The notes: generated by a model from the letters alone, not told the origin. DNA of 64,000 nucleotides from an uncultured Nitrosomonas sp. (GCF_902826915.1 NZ_CADEGP010000003.1:1-64000); one strand, 5' to 3'. Shown: positions 43,314 to 56,289, numbered from the stretch's first letter. A program made the numbers and translations.

Positions 43314-44768
43314 ATGACCATTCGTTGGGGAAGTTACAAGGTAAAAAATCTGTATGACGAAATGCTGCGGGCCAGTGGAAGACCGCGCCCTGCTGCGCAG
43401 ACTTTATGTAGTTATTTACGTGCTTTAAAAGACGAAGATATTGAAGAACATAAATTAGCAGCAGAATCCGCCATCCATGTCATGGGCGTCACATTCACGG
43501 TTTATACGGAAGAGGAAGGCTCTATAGATCGTGCTTGGCCGTTTGATATCATTCCACGCATTATCGATAAAAAAGAATGGCAGCAAGTGGAAGCTGGCCT
43601 TAAACAACGTGTCCAGGCTTTGAATCTTTTTATTGATGATTTGTACCATAAACAAGACATTGTTAAGGATAATATTTTTCCTGCTGAATTGCTTAAAGAT
43701 TCTAAAAACTTTCGCCCGGAATGTGTGGGCGTAAATCCACCCTTGAATATCTGGGCGCATATTTGCGGTTCAGATTTGGTGCGTGACAAAGACGGCACAT
43801 TTTATGTGCTGGAGGACAATCTGCGTGTCCCTTCAGGCGTTTCGTACATGTTGGAAAATCGCCTGGTAATGAAGCGATTGTTTCCTGAAATGTTTGACCA
43901 ATGCAATATCCTGCCTGTCGATGATTATCCCTCGCAGTTATATGACACATTAGCCGCTTTATCACCACGGCCCGGAGATCAGCCTGAAATTGCTGTACTG
44001 ACACCAGGTATTTTCAACTCTGCTTATTTTGAACACGCCTATTTAGCGCAGCAAATGGGGGCAGAATTGGTCGAGGGCAGTGATCTGATTGTGGACAAGA
44101 ATGACGTTGTGTACATGCGTACCATCGAAGGACTTACGCGGGTCGATGTGATCTATCGTCGCATTGATGACTTGTTCCTTGATCCGGAAGCGTTTCAGCC
44201 CGATTCCGTGTTGGGCGTGCCCGGAATCATGCGCGCCTGGAAAGCGGGTAAAGTTGCTTTAGCCAATGCACCCGGAGCCGGGGTGGCCGACGATAAGGTG
44301 GTCTACGCTTTTGTGCCAGATATGATTAAATATTATCTGGATCAAGACGCCATTTTGCCGAATGTGCCAACTTATAAATGCATCGATAAACAGGAACGCG
44401 AACATGTTGTTGAGCATATTCATGAAATGGTTGTTAAGCCAGCCAATGAATCGGGTGGTTATGGCATGCTCATCGGACCGCAAGCAAGCAAGGAAGAGCG
44501 TGAGAAATTTGTAAATCTGATCCGTCGAGATCCGCGCAATTATGTTGCACAACCGATGCTAACACTTTCTACCGCACCCACCTTGATAGGCAATCGCGTG
44601 GAGCCACGTCATCTGGATTTGCGTCCTTTTATTTTGAGTGGAAAGCAAACCATAGTCACAACCGGCGGCCTGACACGTGTGGCATTGCGCAAGGGTTCGA
44701 CCATTGTTAATTCCTCGCAAGGTGGGGGTAGTAAAGATACCTGGATCGTTGATATGGAGGTAGTTTGA
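43314..44768 (+). CDS. circularly permuted ATP-grasp protein (DUF404/DUF407)
   Basis: The 484-residue protein matches the circularly permuted ATP-grasp family. Hallmarks are PFDIIPRIIDKKEW, LNLFIDDLYHKQDIVKDNIFP, YVLEDNLRVPSGVSYMLENR, DVIYRRIDDLFLDP and the nucleotide loop MVVKPANESGGYGMLIGP (about 380-397). The family is predicted to form amide or peptide bonds on an unknown acceptor. It is followed by the alpha-E gene 2 bases after its stop, and faces the transglutaminase/Anbu pair across a 760-base gap. Confidence 0.92.
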   Translation: MTIRWGSYKVKNLYDEMLRASGRPRPAAQTLCSYLRALKDEDIEEHKLAAESAIHVMGVTFTVYTEEEGSIDRAWPFDIIPRIIDKKEWQQVEAGLKQRVQALNLFIDDLYHKQDIVKDNIFPAELLKDSKNFRPECVGVNPPLNIWAHICGSDLVRDKDGTFYVLEDNLRVPSGVSYMLENRLVMKRLFPEMFDQCNILPVDDYPSQLYDTLAALSPRPGDQPEIAVLTPGIFNSAYFEHAYLAQQMGAELVEGSDLIVDKNDVVYMRTIEGLTRVDVIYRRIDDLFLDPEAFQPDSVLGVPGIMRAWKAGKVALANAPGAGVADDKVVYAFVPDMIKYYLDQDAILPNVPTYKCIDKQEREHVVEHIHEMVVKPANESGGYGMLIGPQASKEEREKFVNLIRRDPRNYVAQPMLTLSTAPTLIGNRVEPRHLDLRPFILSGKQTIVTTGGLTRVALRKGSTIVNSSQGGGSKDTWIVDMEVV

Positions 44769-44770
44769 CT

Positions 44771-45691
44771 ATGCTTTCTCGCGTTGCTAACAAAATCTAC
44801 TGGATGGCACGCTACCTAGAGCGTACAGAAAACACTGCGCGTTTGATTAACGTCAATACACACCTGTTGCTTGATTTGCCGAAACGAGTGAGATTGGGAT
44901 GGGAGCCCATTGTCGATATTACAAGCCGTAAAGACTATTTTTACAGCCTATATGAAGAAGCGGATGAGCGCAGCGTGATACGCTTCATGGTCACCGATCT
45001 TCGCAATCCAGGCTCCATTCTCTGTGCGCTTAACATGGCGCGTGAGAATACTCGTAACATTCGTGACATTATTCCACGAGAGGTTTGGGAGCAAATGAAT
45101 ACACTTCATTTGACTGCAAAAACAAATGCAAGGAGTGTGCAGACACAGCGGCACCGCTATGATTACTTGCGTTCTATCATTCTGGGTGTACAAACCATTA
45201 GCGGAATGCTAGCCGGCACTATGACGCATGATGCAGGGTATGATTTCTTGCGTATGGGGCGTAACCTAGAGCGTGCTGATATGACAACACGTATTATTGA
45301 TGTCCGCTCCGCTACACTACTGCCGGATATGTCGGAAGCCTTATCTCCATTTGAGAATTTGCAATGGGTCAGTGTGCTCAAATCACTCAGCGCTTACCAG
45401 ATGTACCGTCGTGAAATGCGTTTGCGCATAAGTCGTTCGGATGTTCTAAAATTCTTATTGCAAGAGGAGCGCTTCCCACGTGCTTTTTATCACGCTATAT
45501 GCCAAGTGCATAATTGTTTGGAGAGTTTGCCGCGCAACGAGAAAACGTTACTGTTAATCACCAAATTGCAACAAAAAGTGCAGCATTCCAAACTGGGAAC
45601 ATTTGATCAGGAGAAACTGCATGAATTTATTGATGAGCTCCAGCTTGGCGTGATTAAGATACACGACAGTATTGATAAAACCTATTTCTGA
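44771..45691 (+). CDS. alpha-E domain protein (DUF403)
   Basis: I place the start at MLSRVANKIYWMARYLERTENT, with GGAGG 10 bases upstream. A TTG two codons earlier is too close to the GGAGG. The 306-residue product is almost wholly helical, with the family's YWMARYLERTENTARL opening and the later echo FLRMGRNLERADMTTRI. It is always linked to the ATP-grasp protein, to which it probably provides a partner or substrate-binding subunit (inference). It is the last gene of the two-gene operon. Confidence 0.92.
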   Translation: MLSRVANKIYWMARYLERTENTARLINVNTHLLLDLPKRVRLGWEPIVDITSRKDYFYSLYEEADERSVIRFMVTDLRNPGSILCALNMARENTRNIRDIIPREVWEQMNTLHLTAKTNARSVQTQRHRYDYLRSIILGVQTISGMLAGTMTHDAGYDFLRMGRNLERADMTTRIIDVRSATLLPDMSEALSPFENLQWVSVLKSLSAYQMYRREMRLRISRSDVLKFLLQEERFPRAFYHAICQVHNCLESLPRNEKTLLLITKLQQKVQHSKLGTFDQEKLHEFIDELQLGVIKIHDSIDKTYF

Positions 45692-48064: not shown

Positions 48065-49282
48065 CTAAAACTCGATCTGCACGCGCATAGCGAAAATATT
48101 GGCGTGCTTGTTCCGGGGTGAAGGTATTCGGGAAAAGTCCAGATCGGACTGCACCCGGATGTAATTTGCCATGACGCGCATATAGTCGGTCGGGTACCAG
48201 TTAACACCCAACGTCAGATTGTTTTCTTTATCGCCAAAGTGTTTTTGCCCGACAGAACTAAGTTCACCGTAGCGCACTCCCACTTCCCAAGCCCCTATAC
48301 CGCTGTTCAGATTGAACTTGCTGTTTGGTTTGATACCATCGAAAGTACGGCTGATTCTACTGTAATGGCGCTTTTCTCCGGTCATAATCCAGCCAGCTTG
48401 GATATACCAGGAATCGAATTCCGGCGGCTTTAGCAATTGTTGCCTGTCGGTAAACGTTCGTAGATATTCAAATTGCATCGACGCGGAACCATGACTTGCC
48501 GCCAATTCAGTCACAAAAATCTGACTGAAATTACGCACACGGCCAATTGAGCTGAAGCGTGTAATTTCGGCGTCGAATACCTGATGGTCGTTGGTAAATG
48601 CCCTGATATTTTCTGCGGGTTCACGGTGCGATCCAGACAAACCGACATGCAAAATATTCTGTCGGGTCTGGAAAGGTGTATACACCACACGACCACTGAC
48701 ACCCCAACCATTTCCCTCATTGATGCCGTCCTGCAGTCGCTCGCCAAAAATGCCGGTGAAGACCGCCCATTTGCGGCCGTAGGTGTTTGCAGCCATTCCC
48801 AGATGCAGTGGTGGAATCAATGCTGTCATCTGTGCACGTTCCATGAACAGGGTATTCCTGGAGCTGGTCAGCCAATCCAGTCCGATCGGTTCCCGCATAT
48901 TGCCCAGATAAATCCGGGTGCGGCGAATGCCAGAATATCTCAGGTAAAGATCCTGAAAACCACGTTCATCCAACGGATTCGCTGTAAAATCATAGGTGGC
49001 ACGCACATCCCAGTCACGATAAAGCTGCATGCCGAATGTCAGTCGCCCACGGCGAATACCGGAATCAGTGGAGCTCAATGTCTCATTGGTGTTGAGCCAG
49101 ATGCCATCCACTTGCGACACACCCTTTAGACTGGCTTTAAAATCCCTATCCTGCGTTCTATAAGTTAACCCCTTACCCATCCGAGCGCGAAACTGACCTT
49201 CATTGAAATCAATGGCAAATGATTTTTCTCCAGAACCGATAAAGAGAGCGACGGCGATGAAGAAACTAAAAATAAATTTCAT
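48065..49282 (-). CDS. OprO/OprP-type outer-membrane porin
   Basis: The 405-residue protein has a signal peptide (MKFIFSFFIAVALFIGSGEK, cleavage near SFA). A 16-strand type beta-barrel follows, with the family's RRGRLTFGMQLYRDWDVRATYDF, GNMREPIGLDWLTSSR and NNLTLGVNWYPTDYMRVMANY, ending in a C-terminal Phe. The family includes phosphate/polyphosphate-selective porins, but selectivity is not predictable from sequence. It follows the degenerate ABC gene by 39 bases on the same strand and may be the fourth gene of that operon. Confidence 0.9.
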   Translation of the reverse strand: MKFIFSFFIAVALFIGSGEKSFAIDFNEGQFRARMGKGLTYRTQDRDFKASLKGVSQVDGIWLNTNETLSSTDSGIRRGRLTFGMQLYRDWDVRATYDFTANPLDERGFQDLYLRYSGIRRTRIYLGNMREPIGLDWLTSSRNTLFMERAQMTALIPPLHLGMAANTYGRKWAVFTGIFGERLQDGINEGNGWGVSGRVVYTPFQTRQNILHVGLSGSHREPAENIRAFTNDHQVFDAEITRFSSIGRVRNFSQIFVTELAASHGSASMQFEYLRTFTDRQQLLKPPEFDSWYIQAGWIMTGEKRHYSRISRTFDGIKPNSKFNLNSGIGAWEVGVRYGELSSVGQKHFGDKENNLTLGVNWYPTDYMRVMANYIRVQSDLDFSRIPSPRNKHANIFAMRVQIEF

Positions 49283-49321
49283 GAATTTAATAGAATAAGC
49301 AGGTAAATTAAGTTGGCAATC

Positions 49322-50872
49322 TCATGAAGCAAGAAGCTTGGTTGCCTCATGAGCATTGACCCATCGCGCGCCGGCTTCGCCAAGATCGCGAAAACTGCCC
49401 GTAATCAGCAGCAATCCAGGGTTGCCGAGCGCTGCACGCAATAGTGATAGCGCTATCCGGTCAGCACGTGACAGGGTGCGACCGCCTTCGGGCAAACGTT
49501 GATCAAGCCCACCCAGCTTTGCCAGCAATTCTGCTAAACCGGCCTCTTCCAGCCTGGAAAGAATCGCAGCATCAGTTGGCCGCTCCGGCAACCCCAGTGT
49601 CAGCACTCTGCTCATCGTTCCTTTCAGGATGCACGGTGCTTCCGAAATACGCATGACACTTCGGCGCAAACTGCTAGATGCCAGGCGTTCGACTGGACGA
49701 CCATTCAAATAAATTTTTCCTGACACAACGGATTCAAGCCCGGCAATCGCGCGAAAAAAGGCTTCGGTATCTGCACTGGGAGGTAACATACCGCATTCCC
49801 CGGGTTCTAGCGACAGCGTTAGCGGTTCTTCCTTTGCCACACATGCTTGCACCAAATCGAGCGTGACCGGCCCGACGGGCAATTTGACAGAGCTCTTCCT
49901 GCGAGCAGGCGCTACCGGACGAGCGAGTGCGGTGCGCAATTTGTCATGCGCAGCACGAAAGGCGCTGGCTCGGTCTGTCACACCCATCAGGTCTCGTAGC
50001 GGGCGGGCGGTCAAGCCCAACACCGCCAATCCCGCAGCAATGCTTCCAATCGTTAAGCCGGAAGCCGCTCCCCACCAGATCAGTAATGCGGCAGCTACAC
50101 CGGTCAGTGCATCGGGGAACGCATGCAATGCCTCGCTACGGGTTATCCGCGTGACAGCTGCCTGTGTCAATTCCGCTGAACGTCGGGCGATTAGATTCGT
50201 TTCAGTATGACGTCGACCAAGCGCCGCTAATTCAGGTGCGATTGGCAAGCGCTCGGCAAGGTCAGCTGCCAGCAAGCCACGCTGCGCCCGTAGCCGCTGA
50301 TGTGCCTGCAACAATCCTCTCGCCATCGTTGCCAGTGAGAGCAATGCCAGGCATGCCAGGCAAAGGCCGATGACACCAAATCCGGGATCGATCACTAACA
50401 GAATGATAACTGCTGCTGGCAGCATCACAACACCTTCGACCAGCAACGGAAGCCCGCGCGCCAGCCAATCCTTGAGAGCGGTCAAATCACCAACAAAGCG
50501 CAGAGAAACGTAGCCCGCACGCCGTGCAGCCAAGTCACGCGGCCACATTTGGCTAGCATGGTCAAACAACGCTATACGTACATCTCTGACATAGTTTTGA
50601 CCAAGGGTTTCCCCATAGCGACGGAACAACACCCGCACCACCGCGATCACCAGTCCCGATCCGCCAAGTAACAGAAGCGCTATCAGCGGGAGTGATTCTG
50701 TTGCGTAACTATCTGATGTGACGCCAGCTTGCCAAGTGTCGTGTATCGCCATAAACAGCCAACGGGTGGAAAATACAGCGGCGGCCGTTGACAGCGCCTG
50801 GATTAGCGCCAACCCGATCAGGATTGCGATCAGATAACGGCGGCCCTGCGCCATGATACGAGGAGGGGTCAC
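49322..50872 (-). CDS. ABC exporter-like protein with a degenerate nucleotide-binding domain
   Basis: The 516-residue protein starts at GTG, overlapping the preceding stop. Its first 310 residues form a six-helix exporter membrane domain (LIAILIGLALIQALSTAAAVF, RDVRIALFDHASQMWP, GALLIWWG-type helices). The nucleotide-binding fold follows but has lost every catalytic motif. The Walker A place reads MLPPSADTEAFFRAI with no GKS/T, the Q-loop region is RISEAPCILKGTM, and the signature is RTLSRADRIAL in place of LSGGQ. Walker B is GLLLITGSFRDL without Asp-Glu, and the H-loop is absent. ATP hydrolysis by itself seems impossible. It could work with an unseen active partner, or as a non-ATPase scaffold or receptor. 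The frame is intact and well conserved in length, so it is not plain decay. Confidence 0.85.
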   Translation of the reverse strand: MTPPRIMAQGRRYLIAILIGLALIQALSTAAAVFSTRWLFMAIHDTWQAGVTSDSYATESLPLIALLLLGGSGLVIAVVRVLFRRYGETLGQNYVRDVRIALFDHASQMWPRDLAARRAGYVSLRFVGDLTALKDWLARGLPLLVEGVVMLPAAVIILLVIDPGFGVIGLCLACLALLSLATMARGLLQAHQRLRAQRGLLAADLAERLPIAPELAALGRRHTETNLIARRSAELTQAAVTRITRSEALHAFPDALTGVAAALLIWWGAASGLTIGSIAAGLAVLGLTARPLRDLMGVTDRASAFRAAHDKLRTALARPVAPARRKSSVKLPVGPVTLDLVQACVAKEEPLTLSLEPGECGMLPPSADTEAFFRAIAGLESVVSGKIYLNGRPVERLASSSLRRSVMRISEAPCILKGTMSRVLTLGLPERPTDAAILSRLEEAGLAELLAKLGGLDQRLPEGGRTLSRADRIALSLLRAALGNPGLLLITGSFRDLGEAGARWVNAHEATKLLAS

Positions 50873-51924
50873 GCCGCCGACACCTCATATATTGCACCAA
50901 GCATTGCTGCTAGCTGACTCGCCTTGACTGGATCCAGAAGCTGATTTCGGGTAACTACTTCGATCCCTGTTGCAGCCTGCGCCTCAGCGCTAGCCATGGG
51001 TGAGCAACTCAGCATCCCCGTCAGGGCAACGGGTTTCAGACCCAGCCGCGCCAGTTCCGCCACCCCTCCTGCGGCTGCCAATGCATCACCACATGCAAAC
51101 ATCACTCCTGTAACGCGCTTGTGGAACACCTCATCGGCGATCAAGGCAGCAGTTTCTTTCTGGAAAAGCCCATCGGCAATTTCCATTACGGCAATTCCGG
51201 CTCCGCTCTGCTGTCCGTGCCATAACAGATCGTTAATTCCCCGTTTGATTCGCTCTAACGGCTCCAGATAGGTCGTAACCATTCCAGCATCGGTAAAATC
51301 AGCTACGACATGGGCACCGGCATCAACATAGTTGTTATAGTCACCAAAAGCGCCCGTACCTGTCGCCTTAATCGTAGCCACCCGATATCCTGCTCGCGTC
51401 AAACCATGTGACAAGGCAACTGTTGCCGTGGTTTTGCCAGAATTCATGGCGGTACCAAGCACAGCGATGACTGGAAGTGTGGATCGACCTGCCGCGCGCG
51501 GCAAGGCAAAATCGGCAACATTCAGTGCCTGTCCATCCACATTCATGATTCTCCCCAGCGGTTTTATACGCGTCGGAGCCTTGATACGTGCATTACGTCT
51601 CAGCATCCGACCGAGACACCCGCCACCTGCCAGCATATCGCAACCCTCGGGATCTATCTTGGCAATTCCTTCGAATTGATCCGATGCATAGCGCGCACCA
51701 CAAGGCAGCACAACAAGATCACCTGGATATAACGTTGAAGGTCTGCCAGCTAATAATTGAATCCGTTGATGCTGGCCAATCGACAGGACTCGGCCGAGAA
51801 TCAGATCACCGGGGTGCGTTACGGAAAAATCGGCATCCAGCGCTTGCGCTTGCGCATGATCCACTCGCCGCGTGGAAAAAGACCATTTTGCTTTTTTGAA
51901 CATATCCTGAAGCTGAGTAGGCAT
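50869..51924 (-). CDS. DUF1611-like P-loop protein
   Basis: From MPTQLQDMFKKAKWSF (GGAG 9 bases upstream; the open frame extends 35 codons into the upstream gene) the protein has 351 residues. An N-terminal beta-rich domain (to about 165) contains GDLILGRVLSIGQH and YPGDLVVLPCGARYA. A P-loop NTPase domain follows with Walker A in VLGTAMNSGKTTATVAL and later TGTGAFGDYNNYVDAGAH and VMEIADGLFQKE. The layout resembles DUF1611-type proteins and dethiobiotin-synthetase-like P-loop enzymes. It may be the energy-coupling component lacking in the adjacent ABC gene, but that is speculation. Its stop overlaps the ABC start (GTGA). Confidence 0.75.
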   Translation of the reverse strand: MPTQLQDMFKKAKWSFSTRRVDHAQAQALDADFSVTHPGDLILGRVLSIGQHQRIQLLAGRPSTLYPGDLVVLPCGARYASDQFEGIAKIDPEGCDMLAGGGCLGRMLRRNARIKAPTRIKPLGRIMNVDGQALNVADFALPRAAGRSTLPVIAVLGTAMNSGKTTATVALSHGLTRAGYRVATIKATGTGAFGDYNNYVDAGAHVVADFTDAGMVTTYLEPLERIKRGINDLLWHGQQSGAGIAVMEIADGLFQKETAALIADEVFHKRVTGVMFACGDALAAAGGVAELARLGLKPVALTGMLSCSPMASAEAQAATGIEVVTRNQLLDPVKASQLAAMLGAIYEVSAA

Positions 51925-51952
51925 GATGATGTCTCCATTTTTACTGAAAGAA

Positions 51953-52819
51953 TTAGGTGTTATAAAAAATTTGTTGAGTGAGTCCACCCAGTACTGCGCA
52001 CTGCGAAAACTCATGACCGCAACCGTCAAGCAGGATCAATCGCGCATTGGGCTTAATACCATGTGTCTTGGCAGCCTCGGTAAAATGTGCCACATAGCTT
52101 TTGGCACGCGCTAGACGATGTGGCCCCTGCACAGCATTGAGGCGGGGCTTGCTGCGTAATGTCGAATTCTGAATCGTATCAGCGGTGCCAACATAAACGC
52201 TCAATGGCAGGCGCAGATAATCAGTCAGCTGTGCTCTCATTCTTGCTAGCAAATCGTTTTCACTACTTTGCAGCGATCTTGCTGGTTGACCCAGACCCGC
52301 CGGATAGGAAAGTGTCATGTCCGGTAGACAGTACCAGCCAGAGGACGCTAAATGTAAGCATGACACCAGATTTGGATAAAGTAATGCAAACCTGTGGGCG
52401 AGCTGTGCGCCTCCGGAGAATCCGAATAATTCAAAGGATTCTGCTTCGATCGTGCCATTGCTGCGTAGCATAGTGATCAGCGTCAAAATCGCCTTGTCAG
52501 GTCTGACACGGCCAATGCGCTGAAAAATCGGCCATTGTGCACGAGAAAAACGTGGCACGATCAATACACGCCCGGTATCAATTGCAGATGCGGCAAATGC
52601 CGCGTAAATAGCATCAGCATTACGTGAAATGCCATGCAGCGCAATCAAAGGCGGCAAGGCCGGATTAACGAAACTCGGCACCAGCACTCGTGCCATAATC
52701 TTGGCGCCAGATGTAGTAGTCAACCACAGTTTTTCCTCGCGCTCCGCGCCCGTCGGGCTAAGGTACGTAAACTCTGGGATCAGATGCACTTTCTTGTCTG
52801 AAGAGTGGATGGTAAGCAT
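51953..52819 (-). CDS. alpha/beta hydrolase (esterase/PHB depolymerase-like), first gene of the operon
   Basis: The start at MLTIHSSDKKVHLIP has AAAGG 6 bases upstream, giving 288 residues. A TTG 19 codons earlier is possible. The nucleophile elbow is GFSGGAQLAHRF (about residues 150-161), the oxyanion-side HGISRNADAIYAAFA lies near 77-91, and the catalytic His is probably in DGCGHEFSQ near the C-terminus. The fold is that of poly(hydroxyalkanoate) depolymerases or feruloyl esterases, but there is no signal peptide, so it acts inside the cell. It lies 28 bases upstream of the P-loop gene. Confidence 0.8.
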   Translation of the reverse strand: MLTIHSSDKKVHLIPEFTYLSPTGAEREEKLWLTTTSGAKIMARVLVPSFVNPALPPLIALHGISRNADAIYAAFAASAIDTGRVLIVPRFSRAQWPIFQRIGRVRPDKAILTLITMLRSNGTIEAESFELFGFSGGAQLAHRFALLYPNLVSCLHLASSGWYCLPDMTLSYPAGLGQPARSLQSSENDLLARMRAQLTDYLRLPLSVYVGTADTIQNSTLRSKPRLNAVQGPHRLARAKSYVAHFTEAAKTHGIKPNARLILLDGCGHEFSQCAVLGGLTQQIFYNT

Positions 52820-53480: not shown

Positions 53481-54914
53481 ATGTTCAGAACTCCAAAACC
53501 AACTCGTGAGTTAGCAACGTCGGCGGTACATTCGATGCGTCCCAGCATGAACATCTGGCACAGCTTTACGCTGGGCTTTGCGGTGGTGTCCCCAATCGTG
53601 GGACTCTATGCCATCATCGGCGTACAAACTACTGTGACAGGTGGAGGTTGGTTTGCTGCACTGGTGATTTGTTTGTTGATGCAATTGCTGGTGGCAACCG
53701 TTTATGCGGAATTGTCATCGCAATTTCCGATTGCCGGCGGTGCGTACAAATGGGCAAGGCAGCTTTATGGCGCCACTGCGGGTCATTATGCCGGGGTCAT
53801 TTATGTCAGTTCCACTATTGCTATGCTGACCACTACAGCATATGCAGGCGGCATTTGGTTTGCCGGTTTTTTCGGATCAGAAGGCGAAAGTGGTGGTGAG
53901 AAAGTTCTATGGGCAATAATTTTTCTGGCCTTATGTACTCTGCTGAATCTGGCGCATGTCAGTGTTTTTAAGCTCGTTATCAAACTCGGAGTGTATGCCG
54001 AGGTGGTCGGATCACTGGGTATTACGGTGCTGTTATTCTTGTTTTTCCGCCAGCACTCTTTCATGGAATTGTTTCAGCATTTAGGTACCGGTACTGCGCC
54101 CAGTAGTATCGCTGCTTTTCTCGCGGCACTTGCTATCGCCGGTTGGGCATTCATTGGTTTTGATGCTTGCTCGACTACTGCGGAAGAAACGCATCAACCA
54201 GAGCACGCGGTACCACGGGCAATATTTTTTTCGCTATGTGCGGTCGGTACGGTGGTGATTTTCAATTCAGCCTCATTGGTATTAGCTTTTGATCATGATA
54301 TTTTGATTAACAGCAGTGTGACTGCCGATCCGATTACACCGTTAATCGCCAGCCATTTCGGAACATGGATTGAAAAACCGTTTCTGGCGATTGTCATGAT
54401 CGCATTTCTTGCTTGCGGCGCATCGGTAGTCAAATACACGTCACGTATTGTTTTCTCAATGGCACGTGAAGGTAATTTACCCAGCATACTCAATCGAGTC
54501 ACACCTGCCGATACACCGCGTAATGCCATTCTCTTCACTGTCCTGATGGCAAGTTGCGGATTAATATTTGGACTTAACGACGACGCGGTAGCTACCATTA
54601 TCGCGTTTGGTACGGGCGGTCTTTACGCCATGTTCGCATTCACCACCGGAATCGCGTTGTTTGCTAGATTGACTGGTCGATGGAATCCAGATTTGGGGCA
54701 ACTAAAGCTGGGAAAATGGGGGTTAGTCATTAATAGCTTAGCATTTACCTGGGCGTTATTCGAGCTGATCAATATTGCCTGGCCACGTCCTTATGCCATT
54801 GCAGCCGACGCACCGTGGTGGCAGTTATGGGCCACGCCGCTGGTGCTGGGCAGCATTCTGGGTGTTACTACAATCTATCTGCTTTTGGGTAAATTATTGA
54901 GGAGACGGTCATGA
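53481..54914 (+). CDS. APC-family amino acid/amine permease, probable guanidine importer
   Basis: The 477-residue protein has about 12 membrane helices. The APC-superfamily N-terminus is SFTLGFAVVSPIVGLYAIIG (about 33-52), with SSQFPIAGGAYKWARQLYG in helix 2 and GFDACSTTAEETHQPEHAVPRA in the helix 6-7 loop. It is the first gene under the guanidine riboswitch (AGGAG 8 bases upstream) and overlaps the next gene by 4 bases. Its job is therefore most likely to bring in guanidine or a related amine. Many such operons use an ABC transporter instead. Confidence 0.85.
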   Translation: MFRTPKPTRELATSAVHSMRPSMNIWHSFTLGFAVVSPIVGLYAIIGVQTTVTGGGWFAALVICLLMQLLVATVYAELSSQFPIAGGAYKWARQLYGATAGHYAGVIYVSSTIAMLTTTAYAGGIWFAGFFGSEGESGGEKVLWAIIFLALCTLLNLAHVSVFKLVIKLGVYAEVVGSLGITVLLFLFFRQHSFMELFQHLGTGTAPSSIAAFLAALAIAGWAFIGFDACSTTAEETHQPEHAVPRAIFFSLCAVGTVVIFNSASLVLAFDHDILINSSVTADPITPLIASHFGTWIEKPFLAIVMIAFLACGASVVKYTSRIVFSMAREGNLPSILNRVTPADTPRNAILFTVLMASCGLIFGLNDDAVATIIAFGTGGLYAMFAFTTGIALFARLTGRWNPDLGQLKLGKWGLVINSLAFTWALFELINIAWPRPYAIAADAPWWQLWATPLVLGSILGVTTIYLLLGKLLRRRS

Positions 54915-55633
54915 ATCAGCCAACAATCATCTGGAAACAAGTTATACCAGGCGGATGCCATTGGTCAGGCATTATTCGTCGGGGAGCTACATTGCGTTTA
55001 ATCGATGTCGACGGAGGCGCGAATGCAGCAGTATTGTTTTTTAATCAGGAAGAAAAACTTGAGCGCTACAACATGGCGGACACCCTGAAATCGCAGCACA
55101 CCTTTCGCTTAACCAAGGGTCATGCCTGTCATTCAGACATGGGGCGCATTTTCTGTTGCATCACAGCGGATACCTGCGGCTGGCATGATACTGTGTGCGG
55201 CTTAAGTGATGCTAATTTGATCCAACAAAAATATGGTACTGCGCGCTTTCAGGAGCATCGTAATCAAATGTTTCGCAGTGGTCTGGATGGCCTATTGATC
55301 GAGCTAGGTAAATGGGGTTTGGGTATGCGTGACATCGTAGCCAACATCAATTTCTTCAGTAAAGTCACAGCTGTTGCTTCGGGCGAATTAGCTTATCAAG
55401 CCAATCATAGTAAGGCGGGCGATTACGTAGATTTGAGTTTTGTAATGGATACTCTTGTTGCGCTATCCACGGCGCCACACCCGCTGGATCCCAAGAAACC
55501 ATATCAACCTGGCACAGTCAATTTGGAACTGTTTAATACACCACCGCAGGCCATCAAGGAATGCCTACATATCAGTGAAAATATCCGTGCGTTACAGAAC
55601 GTGCAAAACTTTTATTGTGAAGGTGCGAAATGA
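54911..55633 (+). CDS. urea carboxylase-associated DUF1989 protein, probable carboxyguanidine deiminase subunit
   Basis: The 240-residue DUF1989 protein is one of the pair formerly called urea-amidolyase-associated proteins, shown in other bacteria to be the carboxyguanidine deiminase CgdAB. It has the family core [20 protein letters not shown] (about 78-97) and [12 protein letters not shown]. The segment that in the partner reads CSAESN is here CGLSDAN, and RYG is replaced by QKYG. Only one of the two subunits may therefore keep a full metal site. I cannot say which Cgd letter applies. It overlaps both neighbours by 4 bases. Confidence 0.88.
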
Positions 55634-56289
55634 ATACTTCTTATCTGCATACCAGTCTGCTCGATCCCAAACATGCCGTGATCGATGAAATTTGTGCCGC
55701 CGGAGAACCCTGGGTAAAACAAGTTAAACAGGGACAAACTTTTCGCATTGTGGATCTGGAAGGCAACCAAGCGGTCGACACTCTGTTCTACAACGCCCAT
55801 AACGCACAAGAACGTTATAGCGCAACCGACACCATTAACCGGCAAAATAAAGTGTACCTGTCGACTGGCAGCAAACTTTATTCCAATCTTGGCCATGTCA
55901 TGCTCAGCATCATCGCGGATACTTGTGGGCAGCATGATACGCTAGGCGGTGCCTGCTCGGCGGAGAGTAATACCGTGCGCTATGCGCTGGAGAAACTTCC
56001 GATGCACAGTTGCCGCGACAATTTTTTGCACGCATTGGCGCACGATCCGTTGTGCCAGCAATTAGATATGAGCAAGCGCGATTTGCCCAGCAACATCAAT
56101 TTTTTCATGAACGTTCCAGTGACGGAAGTTGGCGGCCTGGAGTTTGCGGATGGCGTCTCTGCACCAGGAAAATACGTCGAAATGTGCGCGGAAATGGATA
56201 TCGTCGTACTGATCTCCAACTGTCCTCAGCTTAACAATCCGTGTAACGCATATAACCCGACGCCAATCCGGCTGTTGATTTGGGATTAA
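55630..56289 (+). CDS. urea carboxylase-associated DUF1989 protein, probable catalytic carboxyguanidine deiminase subunit
   Basis: The 219-residue DUF1989 protein contains [20 protein letters not shown], then [14 protein letters not shown], the likely metal-binding Cys/His set. [14 protein letters not shown] and [21 protein letters not shown] are further family signatures. With the previous protein it should hydrolyse carboxyguanidine to allophanate plus ammonia. Its start overlaps the preceding stop (ATGA), which suits equimolar production of a two-subunit enzyme. The carboxylase begins 4 bases after its stop. Confidence 0.9.

Follow-up and report, generated by a model that had tools for sequence, protein, structure and literature searches.

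Type IV ABC exporters, such as TmrAB, CydDC, MsbA and PrtD, have a six-helix exporter TMD with long cytoplasmic extensions, a Walker A motif (GxxGxGKS/T), an LSGGQ-type signature, a Walker B motif with a catalytic Glu and an H-loop His, and they carry out ATP-driven transport. Degenerate ATP sites in ABC exporters are usually studied as one bad site out of two. In heterodimeric exporters such as TM287/288, TmrAB, PatAB and MsRv1273c/72c, where degenerate sites are common, catalytic residues are lost with the NBD fold kept, and the degenerate site still binds ATP and stays conserved (PMC7756269). The SbmA/BacA (SLiPT) transporters, which carry out proton-driven peptide transport, have an ABC-exporter-like TMD that is driven by protons and works without its own ATPase (PMC13316013). 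SbmA is not known to have an NBD. For the DUF1611 (PF07755) P-loop proteins, of which TM0796 (2g0t) is a solved member, no function was found in the papers searched. Here we describe a gene set in which an exporter-fold protein that has lost its ATPase motifs is encoded beside a DUF1611-like P-loop protein with an intact Walker A motif, usually together with a hydrolase.

The window, that is, the whole 64,000-nucleotide stretch of DNA analysed here (uncultured Nitrosomonas sp., GCF_902826915.1 NZ_CADEGP010000003.1:1-64000), holds the gene set at 48065-52819 on the minus strand:
51953-52819, minus strand, alpha/beta-hydrolase of 288 aa with a GFSGG nucleophile and intact, conserved triad motifs; no signal peptide was seen by eye in the window copy
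50869-51924, minus strand, DUF1611-related SIMIBI-type P-loop protein of 351 aa with the Walker A motif GTAMNSGKTT and an extra N-terminal beta domain (about residues 1-147)
50869-50872, minus strand, 4-base overlap (GTGA) of the P-loop stop and the ABC start
49322-50872, minus strand, pseudo-ABC exporter of 516 aa with a six-helix TMD and a predicted folded NBD lacking Walker A, the signature, Walker B and the C-terminal H-loop part
48065-49282, minus strand, Porin_O_P outer-membrane porin of 405 aa

The spacing is that of an operon, with 28 bp between the hydrolase and P-loop genes, -4 bp between the P-loop and ABC genes, and 39 bp between the ABC and porin genes, and the same -4 spacing occurs in 10 loci. 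Upstream and divergent lies a urea-carboxylase-associated cluster (permease, UAAP1 and UAAP2; 53481-56289, plus strand), which does not accompany the cassette elsewhere. The first-pass annotation had reported four tightly spaced same-strand genes with a GTGA overlap and an ABC protein lacking its catalytic residues, and this observation is confirmed. It had also held that the overall NBD length was kept, which needs correction, since the protein is 516 aa against 568-573 aa in most intact Nitrosomonas relatives and ends where the H-loop would be; the H-loop is thus missing and not substituted.

Against the other ABCs of the family, Walker A is -PPSADTEA in place of GPNGAGKST, the signature is LSRADRIA in place of LSVGQRQR, and Walker B is LLLITG in place of LLLLDE. 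The alignment in these segments is unambiguous because the flanking residues match. The Pfam profiles agree, with ABC_membrane (PF00664) scoring 50.4 bits (above its cutoff of 28) and ABC_tran 23.4 bits (below its cutoff of 25), and no NCBIfam equivalog reaches its cutoff. An AlphaFold2 model built on a 27-row alignment has a pLDDT of 88.6, with a six-helix TMD and a folded NBD, and the whole model matches TmrAB and CydDC (Z 28.1, rmsd 3.0, 500 residues aligned). The predicted fold is therefore kept while the catalytic centre is gone. Since the best structural matches are heterodimeric exporters, and six other ABC exporters exist in the genome, we can not rule out that the pseudo-ABC is the degenerate half of a heterodimer in the style of TmrAB or TM287-288 whose active half is encoded elsewhere. 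We consider this unlikely, as no second ABC gene of the family lies in the cassettes, Walker A is gone and the site is poorly conserved here, in contrast to the known degenerate sites (PMC7756269), and intact relatives in the same gene position look like self-sufficient homodimers.

The P-loop protein of the window scores 26.3 bits against the DUF1611 profile, marginally over the cutoff of 25, with only positions 10-75 of 201 matched, and 11 of 22 family members match the profile at E 0.01 or better. Its predicted fold (pLDDT 88.4) is a SIMIBI-type P-loop domain. The best structural match is TM0796 (2g0t; Z 16.2 over 171 residues), tied with CTP synthetase and dethiobiotin synthetase (Z 15-16); the match to 2g0t covers residues 101-345 only, and the N-terminal beta domain is not covered by it. 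The porin matches the phosphate-selective porin O/P profile (PF07396) over its full length, at 149.9 bits against a cutoff of 20.9.

The P-loop and ABC pair, usually with the hydrolase, is conserved across Nitrosomonadaceae, Rhodobacterales and one gammaproteobacterial family. The same gene order as in the window, with a 75%-identical dead ABC, is found in one other Nitrosomonas genome (G232, locus L055; L numbers denote the loci compared). Thirteen Nitrosomonadaceae loci carry a different version, in the order P-loop, ABC, hydrolase, porin, with fully intact NBDs. In an order taken as Rhodobacterales because one member (G867, contig 2) shares the gene map of the Paracoccus albus plasmid NZ_CP115776.1, 31 of 245 genomes have the P-loop protein, and in the gammaproteobacterial family, which under GTDB belongs to the same class as the window genome, 19 of 116 have it. 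Of the neighbourhoods fetched, nearly all of the Rhodobacterales and gammaproteobacterial ones and most of the Nitrosomonadaceae ones have the ABC next to the P-loop gene; L125, which seemed to lack the ABC, encodes it too, and in L136 the ABC lies nearby on the other strand. The family is uncommon, as a draw of 398 genomes over the phylum gave 5 with the P-loop protein.

Of 49 distinct ABCs paired with the P-loop protein, 19 keep Walker A, the signature, the Walker B Glu and the H-loop, 11 are intermediate and 19 have none. On a tree built from TMD columns only, the fully dead state needs 4 changes, at least 3 of them forced by well-supported branches; the count does not by itself give direction, but loss is the only plausible one. 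Some branches are long, and the placement of L126, L127, L129 and L144 is uncertain. The window and G232 copies sit with the Rhodobacterales members L126/L127 (100/99) inside a wider dead Rhodobacterales clade (98/95), away from the native Nitrosomonas version, and the window copy was therefore probably acquired horizontally. The ABC and P-loop genes are also richer in G+C (0.57 and 0.54) than the window (0.47), although native copies are raised as well (0.52 and 0.50 in L060). The existence of homologues with intact Walker motifs and a standard known function had been named in advance as grounds for rejecting the pseudo-ABC idea, and this condition is only half fulfilled, since the 19 intact homologues exist but none has a known function and no NCBIfam equivalog fits.

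In every locus with an ABC where the segment can be read, the P-loop Walker A is intact (GxxMNxGKT-like), whether the ABC is intact or dead, and it is intact next to every fully dead ABC. The exceptions are L065, a Nitrosomonas locus with a split P-loop gene beside an intact ABC, and L160, which is cut by a contig end. By contrast, in four Nitrosomonas loci with orphan P-loop copies and no ABC (L073, L074, L156 and L157) the motif of the P-loop protein itself has decayed.

A sequencing error or pseudogene was rejected, since two Nitrosomonas genomes and many Rhodobacterales carry intact dead-NBD frames. For the window against G232, dN/dS is 0.143 for the NBD, 0.105 for the TMD, 0.082 for the P-loop gene and 0.135 for the hydrolase, although dS is high (1.1-1.6), making these ratios approximate. 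In dead ABCs of the Rhodobacterales type, column identity in the first cytoplasmic-loop coupling segment (ICL1, 0.71) and the Q-loop/coupling segment (0.58) is about equal to that in intact ones (0.735 and 0.566), whereas the catalytic segments have collapsed (Walker A 0.19 against 0.79; Walker B 0.34 against 0.79). This pattern fits a retained mechanical or docking role better than uniform decay. However, it remains possible, if unlikely, that the ABC is a slowly decaying relic, kept only because its gene is translationally coupled to the functional P-loop enzyme or because its TMD still anchors that enzyme. Dead NBDs diverge faster overall than intact ones (0.30 against 0.55 mean column identity), as also expected for a part under weak constraint, though the intact set is less diverse; the C-terminus is shortened, and in the closest dead pair (L132/L138) NBD dN/dS is 0.29, which is relaxed. 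Against this reading, the 19 fully dead copies are uninterrupted frames of 501-562 aa over deep divergence (about 40% identity between the window and Rhodobacterales copies), NBD dN/dS is well below 1, and the coupling segments are about as conserved as in intact proteins.

The complete and conserved TMD also leaves room for a secondary, ion-gradient-driven or facilitated transporter that has dispensed with ATP, mechanistically like SbmA/BacA (PMC13316013), with the P-loop enzyme and hydrolase only making or processing the cargo. Neighbouring genes point to the envelope, with the porin here and HlyD, TolC and CapA in other contexts. Nevertheless, we regard this as a less likely alternative, although the strongest of the three rivals, because a folded NBD is predicted and its coupling segments are retained, which a secondary transporter would not obviously need. 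SbmA was not among the fold matches shown, which does not exclude it.

The interpretation given by the first-pass annotation, a repurposed pseudo-ABC protein and not random decay, in an operon of novel four-gene composition, is only partly supported. The pseudo-ABC idea holds, but the four-gene composition is neither unique nor the unit, as the core is the P-loop and ABC pair, usually with the hydrolase. Native-cassette porins and window-type porins form separate clades, the latter nearest to non-cassette porins of other Nitrosomonas, so a porin was recruited twice independently within Nitrosomonadaceae, and none was found beside the cassette outside this family. This hints at an outer-membrane step but may be chance. 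The further suggestion that the adjacent P-loop NTPase could supply the energy or a switch stays a hypothesis.

With moderate confidence, we favor a conserved three-protein envelope module, made of the P-loop NTPase, the hydrolase and the ABC-exporter-fold membrane protein, in which the ATPase of the ABC has become dispensable and the P-loop enzyme is the only NTP user. Our data establish that the genes are linked across three proteobacterial groups, that the ATPase centre was lost repeatedly while the predicted fold, the coupling segments and purifying selection remained, and that the P-loop Walker A is intact beside every fully dead ABC. The remainder is inferred from sequence and predicted structure, including the substrate, transport and all activities. 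In this view, the P-loop protein and the ABC are translated together and form a complex at the inner membrane, and the P-loop enzyme does the NTP-dependent step, most likely activation or modification of a small or peptidic acid. This last point is an analogy with its CTP-synthetase/dethiobiotin-synthetase-like fold, a fold class that often activates carboxylates. The hydrolase would trim or release the product, the ABC protein would serve as membrane receptor, scaffold or passive gate for it, the ABC of the window lineage would no longer use ATP, and the porin added in Nitrosomonas would perhaps serve the outer-membrane step. The six other ABC exporters of the genome, which could supply a partner, weigh against this view. 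A more far-reaching possibility, which we consider unlikely but can not exclude, is a re-powered ABC transporter, in which the ATPase of the membrane protein has been replaced by a separate SIMIBI-class P-loop NTPase that docks on the dead NBD and drives the conformational cycle in trans, a replacement that would have occurred several times in one family.

The system is built from known folds, and its intact members are ordinary-looking exporters. What appears to be new is the gene pair and the family-wide series of fully dead exporters, as literature searches on DUF1611, degenerate homodimeric exporters and Asp-rich/ABC combinations found no description of either in the papers searched, most subscription literature lying outside their reach. 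This natural series, in one gene family and one conserved gene pair, runs from fully intact through partly degraded to fully dead NBDs beside a constant intact P-loop partner. It allows a direct test of what an ABC exporter can do without its ATPase, and of whether another NTPase can take over.

A plain type I secretion system was rejected, since there is no HlyD or TolC in the window operon. These occur in other contexts of the P-loop protein: in L068, L072 and L159 the P-loop protein and hydrolase occur without an ABC in an operon with TolC-like, HlyD-like, 7TM-transglutaminase/ATP-grasp and CapA-like genes, and an HlyD-like gene lies beside L129. Other neighbours are recurrent but not constant, namely a two-component system, an Asp/Asn beta-hydroxylase (6 loci; a Pfam family that also holds lipid hydroxylases), PepSY proteins, and EF-hand and Asp-rich proteins. 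In L131, L132, L135, L137, L138 and L162, an EF-hand protein with an extreme Asp-rich tail lies directly upstream of the P-loop gene, and VTC-domain-like and DUF4956-like genes (named by eye) are often nearby. Asp-rich proteins were considered as the cargo, being enriched near Rhodobacterales cassettes relative to control regions (13 of 23 loci against 0 of 18 at 14 or more Asp in 40 residues, p = 9e-5; 13 of 23 against 3 of 18 at 12 or more, p = 0.012). However, the loci are not phylogenetically independent, the threshold was chosen after looking, none is near the window cassette and none was found in the gammaproteobacterial loci, so this idea is kept as a lead only.

Small lipoproteins with similar sequence patterns follow the cassette in gammaproteobacterial and Rhodobacterales loci (L150, 12213-12611; L051, 11986-12393) and are possibly one family, with a weak DUF995 match. 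A broken copy of the cassette, with hydrolase and P-loop fragments and only the NBD part of the ABC detectable, is found on the Paracoccus marcusii plasmid pKGP1 (L053, 7226-10724). Elsewhere in the window, what by eye is a circularly permuted ATP-grasp protein (43314-44768, plus strand) is followed, with a 4-base overlap, by an Alpha-E-like protein (44765-45691, plus strand), resembling a known peptide-ligase-type gene pair.
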